The notes under the pieces: model-generated
Told to the model about the DNA's origin: nothing
The model's input: only the letters and a program-made list of their open reading frames with translations
Databases searched by the model: none
In this document: piece after piece, positions 10,446-16,334 of the stretch
Numbering within the stretch: position 1 is the first letter of the stretch
Layout: each line of letters starts with the position of its first letter
NCBI GenBank assembly: GCA_002030015.1
Contig: LQBH01000008.1
Coordinates: forward strand, 1-42,083
Reading direction: 5' to 3'
DNA length: 42,083 nt
Source of the DNA: a delta proteobacterium MLS_D
Lineage (GTDB): Bacteria > Desulfobacterota > Syntrophia > Syntrophales > UBA2210
Translations under genes and position numbers: made by a program

Positions 10446-11102
10446 ATGCGCGACCGGGATATCGCCAAAGTAATCGCCCTTATTAAGAGCGCCATCAGGG
10501 TTGAACGCTTGCCCATGATCGACGCCGCGTCCGTGGGACGAACAGATCCGTATCGCATTCTCATTTCCACACTGCTCAGCCTTCGCACGAAGGACGAAGT
10601 AACCTGCCTCGCCGACGGGCGACTTTTCGCCCTGGCATCAACGCCGGAAGAAATGGTCAGTCTCTCCGAGAAAGTGATCAGTGACGCGATTTACCCTGTC
10701 GGGTTTTACCGTAAAAAGGCCGAGACGATTCGGTATGTTTCACGGGAATTGATCGAAAGATTCGGTTCTCAGGTTCCTCGCAGCGTCGAGGAGCTGGTCG
10801 GCATTCGGGGCGTGGGAAGAAAGACGGCCAATCTTGTCGTTTCGGCCGGTTACGGCCTTCCGGCCCTGTGCGTGGACACGCACGTGCATCGCGTGTCCAA
10901 CAGGCTCGGGTATGTCAGTGAAACCACGCCGGATAAAACGGAATCGGCGCTGCGTCGGAAATTGCCGAAGCGGTTCTGGATAGAATTCAACAGCCTGATA
11001 GTGGCCTTCGGGAAAACCATCTGCCGGCCCGTGTCTCCGAAGTGCAGTTCCTGTCCCGTAATCTCGTATTGCGAACGCGTCGGCGTGACGACCAGCCGCT
11101 GA
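10446..11102 (+). CDS. nth: Endonuclease III (DNA glycosylase/AP lyase)
   Basis: The 218-residue HhH-GPD protein removes oxidised pyrimidines and nicks AP sites. The helix-hairpin-helix ELVGIRGVGRKTANLVV carries the catalytic Lys 126, and VDTHVHRVSNRLG carries catalytic Asp 144. Cys 193, 200, 203 and 209 (C-x6-C-x2-C-x5-C) bind the 4Fe-4S cluster. Length and order are normal for Nth. The N-terminal STLLSLRTKDE replaces the usual LLSAQATD, which I remember as common in some delta groups. GGAG precedes the ATG. It follows fdhE by 41 nt and is 47 nt before a split-barrel protein. A hairpin-like ATATT..AATAT stretch lies between fdhE and nth. Confidence 0.95.
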   Translation: MRDRDIAKVIALIKSAIRVERLPMIDAASVGRTDPYRILISTLLSLRTKDEVTCLADGRLFALASTPEEMVSLSEKVISDAIYPVGFYRKKAETIRYVSRELIERFGSQVPRSVEELVGIRGVGRKTANLVVSAGYGLPALCVDTHVHRVSNRLGYVSETTPDKTESALRRKLPKRFWIEFNSLIVAFGKTICRPVSPKCSSCPVISYCERVGVTTSR

Positions 11103-11618: not shown

Positions 11619-12161
11619 TCAGGCTCCCGTATCGTCGTCGCCGGTACCGGCGACCCTGTTCAGGTGACGCGCCAGCACGAAGAGGTAATCGGACAGCCGG
11701 TTCAGAAAAGCCGCCGGCCCGCGAGGAATCTCTTTATTATTTTTCTTTTCGAGTTCAACAAGTTCGGCCACGCGTCGCTCCGCCCTGCGGCAGACGGTCC
11801 GTGTCAGGTGGGCCGTCGCAGCGGCGGCGTTTCCTCCCGGAAGAATGAAATGCCTGAGCGGCGGCAGCTTCTCTTCCATGCGGTCGATGGCGTTCTCCAG
11901 GGCAGCGGGTGAATCATCATGCTCGGTCACCGGGGAGCCGCACAGCGCGGACGAAATCCTGAGGAGCGTTTCCTGGACGGCGCGCAGTTCACCCGCCGAA
12001 GATGTTTCGGAATCGGGGAGAAAAGAACGGAGAAGGCCGATGCAGGAATTGAGTTCGTCAATGGCGCCCAGCGCTTCAAGGAACGAATGACTTTTTGAGA
12101 CCCTCTTTCCTCCGGGAAGGTCCGTCATTCCGCCGTCTCCCCGTTTCGTGTATATCTTCAT
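11619..12161 (-). CDS. ATP:cob(I)alamin adenosyltransferase, PduO type
   Basis: The 180-residue protein begins KIYTKRGDGGMTDLPGGKRV, the ATP-binding start of PduO-type enzymes. It continues with EALGAIDELNSCIGLL and the C-terminal helix ending FLNRLSDYLFVLARHLN. It transfers the 5'-deoxyadenosyl group of ATP to cob(I)alamin and forms a trimer of helical bundles. Start ATG overlaps the mutY-like stop (ATGA at 12158-12161), so translation is coupled. The product would serve B12-dependent mutases or other AdoCbl enzymes, not encoded here. It is the last gene of the minus-strand operon. Confidence 0.92.
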   Translation of the reverse strand: MKIYTKRGDGGMTDLPGGKRVSKSHSFLEALGAIDELNSCIGLLRSFLPDSETSSAGELRAVQETLLRISSALCGSPVTEHDDSPAALENAIDRMEEKLPPLRHFILPGGNAAAATAHLTRTVCRRAERRVAELVELEKKNNKEIPRGPAAFLNRLSDYLFVLARHLNRVAGTGDDDTGA

Positions 12162-13045
12162 CGATTTTTCTCCTTGCTTCGAGACGGTGTTTCCGGTTCG
12201 CAGACCGGCCGCGCACGGTCGACAGAAACGCGGGATCCCCGCCTCGTTACGAGTCCGTCCGCCTCGAGTCCGCGGAGTGCTTCATCGACGCGGCCTGCTT
12301 CGAAAGGCAGTTCTTCCGCCAGTTGCCGGTACGGTAAGGGCTCACTGTTCAAAAGGCGGCGAAGGATCGCGCCGCGCACCTGCCGGACTGACCCTTCAAA
12401 GGGAGACTGTTTCGTATAATGGTAACTCGCGCGGGAGGGGTTGCCCTGATTTTGCTTGAGGGAGACACCGTAATCCATGAGTGCGTTGTACCACCGCCGT
12501 GGGGTTTCCCGGTCCAGTGTCTGTTCCACGAGAGGTTCCAGTTCTCGATCCGGCACCCGCTCCCGGCCCTTGAAAAAATGGAAGAGATACACGGTCCTGA
12601 TGTTCGTTTCAATAAAAACGACGGGCTTGTTAAAGGCGAAGGCCTGCACCGCGCGGGCCGTCGCGGTTCCGATACCCGGTAGTTCGACCAGCGCGGCTTC
12701 TTCGTCGGGCACCTTCCCCTGGTGCCGTTCCAGTATCAGTTCCGCCGATTCTTTCAGCGAACGGGCTCTCCTGTTGTAGCCCAGTCCCTGCCAGCTTGCG
12801 AGAACGTCGTGCAGGGACGCCCCTGAAAGAGCTCGTACGTCGGGAAACCGTTCGATGAATTCCGTGAATTTGTCCCGCACTCTTTGTACCTGCGTCTGCT
12901 GAAGCATGATTTCCGAAACCAGTATGTGATAGGGGTCGGTGGTTTCTCTCCAGGGAAGACGCCGTCCCTGAAGTCGGTAATGATCGTCGACGATTTGCCT
13001 GAATGTCTGAATGCGGCTGCTATCGAGTTTAATGTCGGTCGTCAT
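12158..13045 (-). CDS. MutY-like HhH-GPD DNA glycosylase lacking the Fe-S cluster
   Basis: This 295-residue protein has a MutY-like core: LPWRETTDPYHILVSEIMLQ (Glu 45 matches the MutY catalytic Glu), then QTQVQRV and the HhH loop LPGIGTATARAV (122-133). At the usual catalytic Asp position it has Glu 146 in VFIETNIRTVYL. The four-cysteine 4Fe-4S loop is missing; KQNQGNPSRASYHYTKQSPF lies there instead. The C-terminal ~220-275 looks like a winged helix (RQLAEELPFEAGRVDEAL), not the MutT-like domain. I recall related FIETNIR proteins annotated as A/G-specific glycosylases. The likely role is adenine or other base excision; the true target is open. It lies 48 nt after the split-barrel gene and overlaps the adenosyltransferase by 4 nt. 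Confidence 0.8.
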   Translation of the reverse strand: MTTDIKLDSSRIQTFRQIVDDHYRLQGRRLPWRETTDPYHILVSEIMLQQTQVQRVRDKFTEFIERFPDVRALSGASLHDVLASWQGLGYNRRARSLKESAELILERHQGKVPDEEAALVELPGIGTATARAVQAFAFNKPVVFIETNIRTVYLFHFFKGRERVPDRELEPLVEQTLDRETPRRWYNALMDYGVSLKQNQGNPSRASYHYTKQSPFEGSVRQVRGAILRRLLNSEPLPYRQLAEELPFEAGRVDEALRGLEADGLVTRRGSRVSVDRARPVCEPETPSRSKEKNR

Positions 13046-13093: not shown

Positions 13094-13486
13094 TTATTCC
13101 GGTTCCGGCCCGCTGCCGACAAGCGGCAACACCCTGTCAACGCGGAAGTAAACGAGACGGGACGTTCCTTCTTGCCCGTCGTTTTGATCGTCGTGGTGGG
13201 TTCGGCGGCGCAAAGCCGCGATCGTTTCTTGATCACTCTCTTCACCTGTTTTTGTCAGGTAGAGCCGTTTCCCCCGGTAACCGGTCCCCGTTTCCCGGAA
13301 CAGGTAGCAGGCGGATGGATTGGATTCCAGGTTACGGCGACTGAGCCGGTCCGCCATGATGAAAGCGACGGTGTCGCCTTCGATGGAGTGGGGTTTCCCG
13401 TACAGTGCGGCGTTGACCTTTCCCGAGGCGTCAGCCGTGGCGAGCACTCCCGTTCCCGTTACGTCTTCGAAATAATTTTTCAGCAT
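13094..13486 (-). CDS. Pyridoxamine 5'-phosphate oxidase-family (split-barrel) protein
   Basis: The 130-residue protein runs GTGVLATADASGKVNAALYG, KPHSIEGDTVAFIMADRLSR and RNLESNPSACYLFRE, a short PPOX-type split barrel that probably binds FMN. The C-terminal LVYFRVDRVLPLVG closes the barrel. It is not a close copy of the split-barrel protein at 11150-11605, so the two are not a recent duplication. The start ATG at 13486 lies 45 nt after the CysK-CysS stop. It is third in the minus-strand operon and just upstream of the MutY-like gene. I assign no reaction. Confidence 0.78.
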   Translation of the reverse strand: MLKNYFEDVTGTGVLATADASGKVNAALYGKPHSIEGDTVAFIMADRLSRRNLESNPSACYLFRETGTGYRGKRLYLTKTGEESDQETIAALRRRTHHDDQNDGQEGTSRLVYFRVDRVLPLVGSGPEPE

Positions 13487-13531: not shown

Positions 13532-15868
13532 TTATTTCCGCGATGTCCAGACGGTTCCTTCCGGCGTGTCCTGTACCATGATACCCCGTTTTGATAACTC
13601 TTCGCGGATCCGGTCAGATTCCTTCCAGTCCTTCCGGTCTCTCGCGCGGTTCCGGTCTTCCAGCAGCCGTTCGACATCTTTATCGAGATGCCGCTCTTCG
13701 AAATTCATGACGCCGAGGACATCGTCGATGGTTCGCATGACATCAAGGATGGCCCGTTGCTCCCGTTCATCGGGACGGTGTTCCGAAAGGGCGGGGTTGA
13801 CGGCCTTCACGAAGGCAAAAACGGCTGCCAGGGCGCCCGACACATTCAGGTCATCATCCATGGACGTCATGAATCCCTGTTTGAGATCGTAGATCAACTG
13901 GTCTATTTCGTCGCCGGTGCCCGCTCCCGGAACATATTTGATCAACCGCTGAATAAAATTATCCAGCCGTTTTACTGTGTTTGCCGCCGTGTCCAGGGCG
14001 GCGAAGGAAAAGTTCAGGGGTTTCCGGTAATGCGAACTGAGCAGGAAGTAGCGGATTTCCCGCCCCGTGTATCCCTTCGCGGCAAGTTCTTCCATAGTGA
14101 ACGTGTTTGACAGTGACCGGGACATTTTCTTGCCGTCCCTCATGACCAGCTCGGCGTTAAGCCAGAAACGGGCGGGATTGTTTTCGCAGGCCGCCGTTCC
14201 GATGGCCATGACGTTTTCACAGTGGGGGAAAATGATATCCGAGCCGGAAAGATGAATATCGTAGGTATCGCCCAGGTTTTTCCAGGCCACGGCCGCGCAT
14301 TCAAGATGCCAGCTCGGACGGACATTCCCCCAGCGCGTCTTGTAGAAGATGCCCCGCTTCAATTCTTCCAGCGTGGCGCGCTTGAAAAGGGTGAAATCAA
14401 CAGGGCTGTCTTTTTCGTAATCGTCCTGGTCGACGGTTTTTCTGTGCCGGACGCGGCTCAGGTCGATATTGGAGAGGCTCCCGTAGTTGTCGAGCCGGGA
14501 AATGTCGAAGTATACGGACCGTAATTTCTCATAGGCGTATCCCTTTTCGACGAGTTTCTGCGCGAGGTCGATCATGGCTTCCACGTGCCGGCTTGCACGG
14601 GGGTAATGAATATCTTCGCTCATGTTCAGGGTTTCCATGTCCCTGAGAAAGGCCTCTATGTATTGCCTGGTGTAGTGTTCCACGTCGAGGCCGGCGCGGG
14701 TCGCTCCCTTGACCGAATTGTCCGCCATGTCGATTATGTTGATTTCATGGACGATGGTAAAACCTTTCAGTTTTAAATAGCGCATGATCATGTCGGCCAG
14801 GACGAACCGGCGGTGCGTCCCGATATGGGGCACGTCGTGAACGGAGGGCCCGCAGGAATGCATCAGCACGCGGTCGGTCCTGAGCGGCTTGAAGGGCTCC
14901 TTGTTCCGGGTCATGGTATTGTACAGCTCGAGGGTCATCAGTTTTTCGTCGGTGAACAGTTCCGTGCTGAGGTAGCGTTCGGCATTATCGGGCAGAATGA
15001 CGACCATGACGCCCTCACTCATGGTTTTTGCCTGCTCCAGGGCAACGTGCATTGCGGCGCCGGAACTCATGCCGACCATGATTCCCTCGACCCTGGCCAG
15101 TCTGCGTGCCATGGCCAGAGCGTCTTCATCCGCCACGTTCACTTTTTTGTCGAGCACGCTTCGGTCAAAAATGCCCGGCCGGTAGGATTCCTTCATATTT
15201 TTCAGACCCTGGATTCGATGACCCAGGTAGGGTTCCACGCCGATAACGAGGATGTCCGGGTTATACTCCTTCAGCCGCTTGCCGATTCCCATGATCGTTC
15301 CCGTCGTTCCGAGGGCCGCGACCACCGCCGTTACGGTTCCTTCCGTCTGGCGCCAGATTTCCTCAGCCGTTCCGTGATAGTGGGCGAGTACGTTGTTCTC
15401 GTTGTTGAACTGATCGGGGGCGAAATAGTTATCCGGAGATTGCCGGACCGTTTCGTACACCTTCTCTATGGCGCCGTCCGTGCCCAGGCGGGCGGGCGTG
15501 AGAAGCAGTTCGGCGCCCAGCGCCTTGAGAATCTTCTTACGTTCGTTGCTCACGGCTTCGGACATGGCTAGAATGATACGATATCCCTTTGCTGCGGCCA
15601 CGAGGGCCAGGCCGATGCCCGTGTTTCCGCTGGTGGCCTCGATGATCGTTTTCTCCGGCGTCAGTATGCCGTCTTTTTCAGCCGCTTCGATCATGACGAG
15701 GGCGATACGGTCTTTCACGGATCCGCCGGGGTTCATGCCCTCGAGTTTTCCGTAGACGATCATCCCTTTCGACGGATTCAATGTGTCGATTCTTACGAGC
15801 GGGGTGTTACCGACAAGATCGAGGATCGTTCCCCGGTGCTTCACGGCAGGTCGATTGGTTTTGTTCAT
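13532..15868 (-). CDS. cysS: Cysteine synthase-cysteinyl-tRNA synthetase fusion
   Basis: One 778-residue frame joins two enzymes. Residues ~10-310 are an O-acetylserine sulfhydrylase (CysK): the PLP lysine K52 lies in MNPGGSVKDRIA, EATSGNTGIGLAL binds substrate, and ILPDNAERYLSTELF ends the domain. Residues ~330-778 are a class I cysteinyl-tRNA synthetase with C339 (SCGPSVHD), HIGT (348-351, HIGH in most), C524 (WHLEC), H549 (FPHCENV) and KMSRS (581-585). The C-terminal anticodon region is present (DRIREELSKRGIMVQDTPEG). The fusion would make cysteine and charge tRNA-Cys in one protein. ATG 15868 is the more conservative start; an upstream TTG at 15922 overlaps the DUF1178 stop. Neither has a strong ribosome site. 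Confidence 0.93.
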   Translation of the reverse strand: MNKTNRPAVKHRGTILDLVGNTPLVRIDTLNPSKGMIVYGKLEGMNPGGSVKDRIALVMIEAAEKDGILTPEKTIIEATSGNTGIGLALVAAAKGYRIILAMSEAVSNERKKILKALGAELLLTPARLGTDGAIEKVYETVRQSPDNYFAPDQFNNENNVLAHYHGTAEEIWRQTEGTVTAVVAALGTTGTIMGIGKRLKEYNPDILVIGVEPYLGHRIQGLKNMKESYRPGIFDRSVLDKKVNVADEDALAMARRLARVEGIMVGMSSGAAMHVALEQAKTMSEGVMVVILPDNAERYLSTELFTDEKLMTLELYNTMTRNKEPFKPLRTDRVLMHSCGPSVHDVPHIGTHRRFVLADMIMRYLKLKGFTIVHEINIIDMADNSVKGATRAGLDVEHYTRQYIEAFLRDMETLNMSEDIHYPRASRHVEAMIDLAQKLVEKGYAYEKLRSVYFDISRLDNYGSLSNIDLSRVRHRKTVDQDDYEKDSPVDFTLFKRATLEELKRGIFYKTRWGNVRPSWHLECAAVAWKNLGDTYDIHLSGSDIIFPHCENVMAIGTAACENNPARFWLNAELVMRDGKKMSRSLSNTFTMEELAAKGYTGREIRYFLLSSHYRKPLNFSFAALDTAANTVKRLDNFIQRLIKYVPGAGTGDEIDQLIYDLKQGFMTSMDDDLNVSGALAAVFAFVKAVNPALSEHRPDEREQRAILDVMRTIDDVLGVMNFEERHLDKDVERLLEDRNRARDRKDWKESDRIREELSKRGIMVQDTPEGTVWTSRK

Positions 15869-15911
15869 GGTTGCAGGATACTTTCGCGATTGCGCCGCCG
15901 GTTCGAAAGCG

Positions 15912-16334
15912 TCAACTGTCAAGTTCAGGAGGAGGCGGTATTCGTAAAAATTCGATTCCCTCTTCTTCGAGCGTTTCCTGTTCTTCCGTCGTTGTTACTC
16001 CCCTGATATTCCGCTTCGGCTCCTCGCCGTGGTGCATCTTGATAGCTATCTCGGCAAAGCGGTCGCCCACGTCGTCGAAGTTTTTGTCTATGAAGTCGTT
16101 CAGCATCTTGAGCATGGAGGGCACGGAGACATTCTGTCCCTCCCCCCGGTCCCGCTCAGCCGACGCTTTCCGCCCGCCGATCGAAATCGACGACGGGACC
16201 ATTTCGACCAAAACGCTTCCGCACACGGGACATTCAATGCATTTCCGCCTTTTCTGATCTTCGAAGGACGCCCGGTCCTTGAACCAGCCTTCGAATTTGT
16301 GTTCATTGTCGCATACGAGATCGTAGATTATCAC
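15912..16334 (-). CDS. DUF1178 family protein
   Basis: The 140-residue protein begins MIIYDLVCDNEHKFEGWFKD, the conserved start of DUF1178. It also has a CxxC pair in KCIECPVCGS that with Cys 8 may hold zinc. The middle (VPSMLKMLNDFIDKNFDDVG, then RFAEIAIKMHHGEEPKRNIR) and the end (GIEFLRIPPPPEL) match the family as I recall it. Function is unknown. It is the first gene of the minus-strand operon, with its stop 43 nt before the ATG of the CysK-CysS fusion. The region upstream (16335-16483) holds no gene on this strand; the tRNA lies on the other. Confidence 0.85.
   Translation of the reverse strand: MIIYDLVCDNEHKFEGWFKDRASFEDQKRRKCIECPVCGSVLVEMVPSSISIGGRKASAERDRGEGQNVSVPSMLKMLNDFIDKNFDDVGDRFAEIAIKMHHGEEPKRNIRGVTTTEEQETLEEEGIEFLRIPPPPELDS

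Follow-up and report, generated by a model that had tools for sequence, protein, structure and literature searches.

Not every MutY carries an iron-sulfur cluster: lactic acid bacteria, among others, have clusterless MutYs in which the Cys loop has been lost and the MutT-like domain kept. The closest solved relative of the protein described here goes further, and is deposited as PDB 8uuc (released 2025-01-22) under the title 'Crystal structure of a bacterial clusterless MutYX bound to an Abasic site analog (THF) opposite d(8-oxo-G)'. A 2025 conference abstract announces a crystal structure, in press, for the MutYX of Eggerthella sp. YY7918 and gives it the same winged-helix fold as MutYA, the archaeal MutY-like enzymes with a winged helix-turn-helix C-terminus, representatives of which are reported to replace MutY in E. 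coli (PMC12585504). In canonical enzymes the catalytic groups are well described. For Gs MutY, excerpts of a mechanistic study name Glu43 as the acid/base catalyst and Asp144 as the carboxylate that forms a covalent intermediate seen in calculations (PMC12871665), and for human MUTYH, excerpts of a second study describe a bridge in which Arg241 and Asn238 link a cluster Cys to the catalytic Asp236 (PMC12000561). Excerpts of a survey of Lost City MutYs name 'clusterless' MutYs as well, and report that Glu replaces the catalytic Asp in five of 160 sequences (PMC11078426). Here, we analyze a gene in a stretch of 42,083 nucleotides from a delta proteobacterium (the window), which most likely adds a member to MutYX, a recently described cluster-free MutY variant, rather than being an enzyme of unsettled substrate.

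Results

The gene encodes a 295-aa protein reading RRLPWR...SEIMLQQTQV...WQGLGYNRR...LPGIGTATA...VVFIETNIRTV...WYNALMDYG...NPSRASYHYTKQSPFEGSVRQVRG, followed by a short helical and beta-hairpin domain (Table 1). A Pfam search matches residues 43-153 to HhH-GPD (PF00730, E 4.5e-13), and the curated mutY model TIGR01084 scores 159.3 bits against a cut-off of 286.5, with an alignment that covers only residues 15-195 of the protein and only positions 2-188 of the 277 in the profile. No Pfam match to a NUDIX domain was found in the protein at E 1, and the GntR, TrmB and MarR Pfam matches in the C-terminal part all lie under their cut-offs. The curated score, the MutT-like C-terminal domain and the [4Fe-4S] loop of a canonical MutY are missing; the catalytic Glu, the wedge Gln/Tyr and the Asn are in place, as in 99 of 99 rows of the family alignment described below. 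An earlier sequence-only reading had described this layout correctly: Glu (E146) occupies the MutY catalytic Asp site in ...VVFIETNIRTV..., the four-Cys loop is absent (the single Cys is residue 282, and the strict C-x6-C-x2-C-x5-C motif occurs in 0 of 98 family members versus 27 of the 27 high-scoring MutYs with extracted ORFs), and a predicted winged helix takes the place of the MutT-like domain, as judged from structure models and from the point at which the mutY profile match ends. Its description of the enzyme as lacking the catalytic Asp holds for that residue but does not amount to the loss of a catalytic acid, because the equivalent of Gs MutY E43 is present as E45.

Table 1 Features of the window, with the second MutY-like matches of two Spirochaetota genomes in the last row
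Feature	Position	Strand	Basis or note
Putative MutYX-type adenine DNA glycosylase gene	12158..13045	(-)	295 aa; homology to 8uuc_A
HhH-GPD catalytic domain, residues 9-200	12446..13021	(-)	PF00730, TIGR01084, structure model
E45, equivalent to Gs MutY E43 (acid/base catalyst), in SEIMLQQTQV	12911..12913	(-)	Alignment
E146, equivalent to Gs MutY D144 (catalytic carboxylate), in IETNIR	12608..12610	(-)	Alignment
R150 and T151 (T151 at the site of the MUTYH bridging Arg, cluster to Asp)	12593..12598	(-)	Alignment
Loop 201-219 at the place of the Fe-S loop, conserved NPxxxS...QSxFEGS	12389..12445	(-)	Alignment
Predicted winged-helix domain, residues 220-275, with invariant R221 and R224	12221..12388	(-)	Models, alignment, structure search
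Gene directly upstream	13094..13486	(-)	130 aa
Cobalamin adenosyltransferase gene	11619..12161		PF01923
Overlap of the cobalamin adenosyltransferase gene with the glycosylase gene	12158..12161		ATGA
PALP/cysteinyl-tRNA synthetase ORF	13532..15922	(-)	796 aa
Second HhH-GPD gene, endonuclease III-like	10446..11102	(+)	
Second MutY-like match	G306:C152:18721-19347; G294:C34:14550-15197		mutY model

Structure prediction supports the assignment of the C-terminal part. In the full-length AlphaFold2 model (58 sequences; mean pLDDT 91.2, pTM 0.87) this part is a winged helix, and residues 198-280 modeled alone also yield a winged helix (pLDDT 82.3); alignment A1 comprised the window protein and 57 of 80 family loci, and alignment A2 comprised 38 of 56 eligible rows. 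Among solved structures 8uuc_A is closest, with a phmmer E of 2.5e-68 for the single sequence and 6.9e-95 for the family profile, and the full-length model matches it at E 1.4e-23 and 46% identity in Foldseek, and at Z 32.1 and rmsd 1.9 over 264 residues with 47% identity in VIA. Canonical MutYs match the model at VIA Z 22.5-24.3 and Foldseek identities of 24-34%, MIG at Z 21.6 and Nth enzymes at Z 15.5-19.7. For the C-terminal part alone, which is short, Foldseek matches are weak, with none below E 0.001 and 8uuc first at E 1.6e-3. VIA matches this part to MarR-, IclR- and Zalpha-type domains, all of which we take to be winged helices, and to other winged-helix domains at Z 9.6-11.3, with 8uuc not among the 50 matches listed.

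We then compared the protein with its relatives in a family set of 80 loci (the best 80 of 102 confirmed in a scan of genome contigs), 18 members from a phylum search, the window protein and 8uuc. With L072 (broken frame) and L114 (the window itself) excluded, the set holds 98 family rows plus 8uuc, that is 99 rows, 95 of which are distinct in the tree columns. Taxa named among the best 80 of 102 loci are Deltaproteobacteria, Nitrospirae, Geobacter and relatives, Spirochaetes, methanogens, Omnitrophota, Auribacterota, Chitinivibrionales, candidate phyla and others. The MutY set consists of 27 high-scoring MutYs and Gs MutY (28 rows; L106, L111 and L112, whose ORF was not found by motif, were left out), and the remaining rows are one MIG and four Nth.

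R33, E45, L48, Q50, T51, Y90 and N148 are identical in all 99 family rows and all 28 MutYs, and site 191 is Asp throughout the family (99/99) and Glu (16) or Asp (12) in MutY. Site 146 is Glu in 83 and Asp in 16 of the 99 family rows, and Asp in 28/28 MutYs. The neighboring site of the bridging Arg, 151, is variable in the family (R 38, A 28, T 22, S 11 of 99) and is Arg in 28/28 MutY, in MIG and in 4/4 Nth, whereas position 150 is Arg in 99/99 family rows and mixed in MutY. All 16 Asp rows carry R151, compared with 22 of the 83 Glu rows. At the Gs Tyr126 site the family has Y 49, A 40, H 4, S 3 and G 3 (A128 in the window protein); this is the site of the catalytic Lys of Nth, which is found in 4/4 Nth and in none of the 99 family rows. 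MIG has Arg at the Q50 site and Leu at the Y90 site, two positions at which none of the 99 family rows differs from MutY. Conservation in the replacement loop and the beginning of the winged helix reaches 99/99 rows for S219, R221 and R224, 98/99 for Q213 and 97/99 for F216.

The sequence-only reading had proposed a phylogeny against MutY, MIG and Nth, which we built without sites 146 and 151. The 99 family rows form one clade (support 100/98) with 8uuc inside it, and family and MutY group together (100/97) to the exclusion of MIG (one sequence) and the four Nth; MutY as a single clade is weakly supported (69/86), and the branches to Nth are long. Asp at site 146 occurs in three basal rows, L129-L131, and in a Nitrospirae-rich clade of 13, so that the tree needs only two Asp/Glu changes. 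This is too few to judge whether Asp covaries with Arg151, and that idea was set aside.

In the genomes examined, the gene occurs in place of MutY, and none of them holds it together with a high-scoring MutY. The phylum sample comprised 148 genomes, requested at a completeness of at least 90%, and its mutY-model matches, listed from about 79 bits upward and hence from far under the classes used, fall into high-scoring MutYs (at least 233 bits), the MutYX family (156-184 bits) and a rest of at most 112 bits that is mostly Nth-like by length. High-scoring MutYs are present in 45 genomes (41 above the cut-off; some are cut by contig ends or short, for example in G039 and G082) and the MutYX family in 19, including the genome of the window; the family profile supports all 19 members with at least 244.8 bits, compared with at most 202 for MutYs. 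Both occur together in 0 of the 148 genomes, where 5.8 are expected (p 5.8e-4 by genome, a value inflated by shared ancestry), and by taxonomic family MutY is found in 23 and MutYX in 13 of 70 with none shared (p 0.003). In 120 Spirochaetota genomes, 39 have MutY (at least 195 bits; G304 matches only positions 4-174), 27 have the MutYX family (at least 316 bits with the family profile) and none has both, against 8.8 expected (p 4e-6 by genome, likewise inflated by shared ancestry). The 50 carrier genomes of 50 of the 80 loci, of unstated completeness and including at least two that are also in the phylum sample, each yield a single mutY-model match at E 1e-30, with scores of 148-188 bits, and none of the 50 has a match near the MutY score range.

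Some Spirochaetota genomes hold a second MutY-like match. In G306 and G294, two of the 27 carriers, it is a short gene present in addition to MutYX (open frames of 227 and 237 aa). Six genomes have such a match, at 116-168 bits with the mutY model and with a stop inside the matched stretch in G294 and G312, and in four of them (G316, G280, G312 and G308) it accompanies a high-scoring MutY. We also considered a link between MutYX and MutM in the phylum sample and rejected it: MutM is present in 12/19 genomes with MutYX, 24/45 with MutY and 39/84 with neither, which is no enrichment of MutYX over neither (p 0.21).

These results confirm the earlier suggestion of a different HhH-GPD subfamily, given that the 99 rows form one clade distinct from canonical MutY. 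The claim that the substrate is unsettled proved mostly wrong: the family groups with MutY and outside MIG and Nth, its member 8uuc was crystallized with 8-oxoG opposite an abasic analog according to the entry title, archaeal enzymes of the same layout are reported to stand in for MutY in E. coli (PMC12585504), and the gene is found in MutY's place in the genomes examined. A clear grouping with proven MutYs, one half of what the earlier reading had named as counting against it, is therefore observed.

The source genome (G000; 70 contigs, 96% complete) contains no second MutY, with only an Nth gene matching besides the MutYX gene itself, and has seven NUDIX matches. Neither MutM/Fpg nor OGG_N gave a match in it, and the usual enzyme for 8-oxoG:C was therefore not found among the families searched. 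The second HhH-GPD gene of the window lies approximately 1 kb from the MutYX gene on the opposite strand, and its Fe-S match (PF10576, 18.1 bits) is just under the cut-off of 20.5.

A functional partner was sought by gene order, and the attempt was abandoned: of ten window genes looked for beside the 80 loci, many of which have short flanks, none shows long synteny apart from the close relatives L003 and L004. The 130-aa gene directly upstream, which has no Pfam match at E 1e-5, also stands beside MutYX in L003-L006 and is the only one of the ten to adjoin it beyond L003 and L004. On the other side, the MutYX gene overlaps the cobalamin adenosyltransferase gene by four bases, and the two may therefore be co-transcribed. 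The 796-aa ORF is a single frame in which a cysteine synthase-type (PALP) domain is fused to a cysteinyl-tRNA synthetase that includes DALR and C-terminal domains; copies that are approximately 95% identical occur in L003 and, truncated at the end of the contig, in L004, and a narrow literature search on this fusion found nothing related.

Discussion

We put the probability at roughly 90% that the gene encodes a MutYX, that is a clusterless adenine DNA glycosylase that would remove A mispaired with 8-oxoG and serve as the organism's MutY. That it is the MutY of the source organism is very probable. We file the product under MutYX as a protein that is predicted to work like MutY and falls in the MutY clade, yet lacks the canonical cluster, the MutT-like domain and the curated score. 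Both its activity on 8-oxoG:A and the residues that would touch 8-oxoG are inferred. Against this reading count the identity to 8uuc of only 46-47%, with 8uuc known here from its title and sequence, the absence of MutM and OGG_N matches from the source genome, a MutM co-occurrence no higher than background, the inflation of the p-values by genome through shared ancestry, and the second, short MutY-like gene in two of the 27 Spirochaetota carriers.

By analogy with MutY, Q50 and Y90 would wedge into the helix and the A would be flipped into a pocket formed by L48, R33 and D191. E45 would protonate N7 and later activate water, and E146, held by N148, could do the job of MutY Asp144, either by stabilizing the sugar cation or by forming a covalent intermediate. 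The site of the Nth lyase Lys holds another residue, so the enzyme should be monofunctional. A conserved NPxxxS...FEGSxRQxR loop would replace the Fe-S loop and, together with the winged helix, the MutT-like 8-oxoG reader; from its conservation, the loop with the start of the winged helix may be a new DNA- or lesion-reading loop.

Loss of the MutT-like 8-oxoG reader could also have relaxed the choice of partner, leaving a MutY-derived adenine glycosylase with the full set of MutY catalytic residues that takes A opposite G or C besides 8-oxoG. We consider this unlikely, given that the title of 8uuc places the bound analog opposite 8-oxo-G, that S219, R221 and R224 do not vary across the 99 rows and the C-terminal part is therefore strongly constrained, and that MutYX replaces MutY in the genomes examined. 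Less probable still is a MIG-like glycosylase acting on thymine or uracil mismatches: among solved structures other than MutYs, MIG comes closest (Z 21.6; E 1e-34), but its one sequence falls outside the clade of MutY and the family (100/97), and its Arg for Q50 and Leu for Y90 differ from all 99 family rows, which agree with MutY. A MIG- or Nth-type enzyme was rejected on the tree, the wedge sites and the Lys site. The least credible alternative is a relic or regulator that binds DNA but is catalytically dead, made of a MutY core and a winged helix with Asp exchanged for Glu at the catalytic site; it was rejected on R33, E45, N148 and D191, unchanged in 99/99 rows, with Glu at the same site in five of the 160 Lost City MutYs (in excerpts of PMC11078426) and the reported function of MutYA in E. 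coli (PMC12585504) also speaking against it.

For MutYX, the alignment suggests that support of the catalytic carboxylate may have been rewired in the family, with the bridging Arg variable and R150 invariant. A fuller version of this idea, to which we would give somewhat less than even odds, is that the Cys-Arg-Asn-Asp relay of the MUTYH type was dismantled and rewired: the bridging Arg would be free to vary because the cluster is gone, Arg150 would have become invariant, and Asp would have been exchanged early for the longer Glu, with one return to Asp. If this is true, nature provides in MutYX a cluster-free control against which to judge whether the catalytic acid is positioned and activated by the cluster, as has been claimed.

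The family is easily overlooked. The curated mutY model scores it at 148-188 bits, far under the cut-off of 286.5, and the Lost City survey, as described in excerpts, retained MutYs only with a MutT-like 8-oxoG motif, 160 of 649 candidates (PMC11078426); such filters therefore miss MutYX. When it is counted, 64 of the 148 genomes in the phylum sample have a MutY-type enzyme, compared with 45 otherwise. MutYX is a large natural set in which 8-oxoG:A repair probably proceeds in the absence of an Fe-S cluster, a point of relevance to the role of the cluster in human MUTYH. The wide distribution, the clean pattern of MutY replacement and the apparently freed bridging Arg make an otherwise ordinary finding worth keeping.

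Compared with known systems, the MIG thymine glycosylase (1kea) and Nth share the HhH-GPD fold with the window protein but stand outside the MutY clade, with other wedge residues and, in Nth, a catalytic Lys. Canonical MutY and MUTYH (Gs MutY, TIGR01084) share the fold of the catalytic domain and the catalytic residues, and differ in having an Fe-S loop, a MutT-like C-terminal domain, Asp144 and an invariant bridging Arg149. Archaeal MutYA has the same combination of a MutY-like N-terminal domain and a winged-helix C-terminus (PMC12585504), and the archaeal rows of our family alignment are presumably MutYAs, which the abstract describes without sequences. The MutYX of Eggerthella sp. YY7918 (8uuc) comes from another organism and has a ten-residue insert in its winged helix, but shares the full-length fold without a Cys loop, the winged helix, the ETN motif with Thr at site 151 and the NPSRRS...FEGSxRQ loop.
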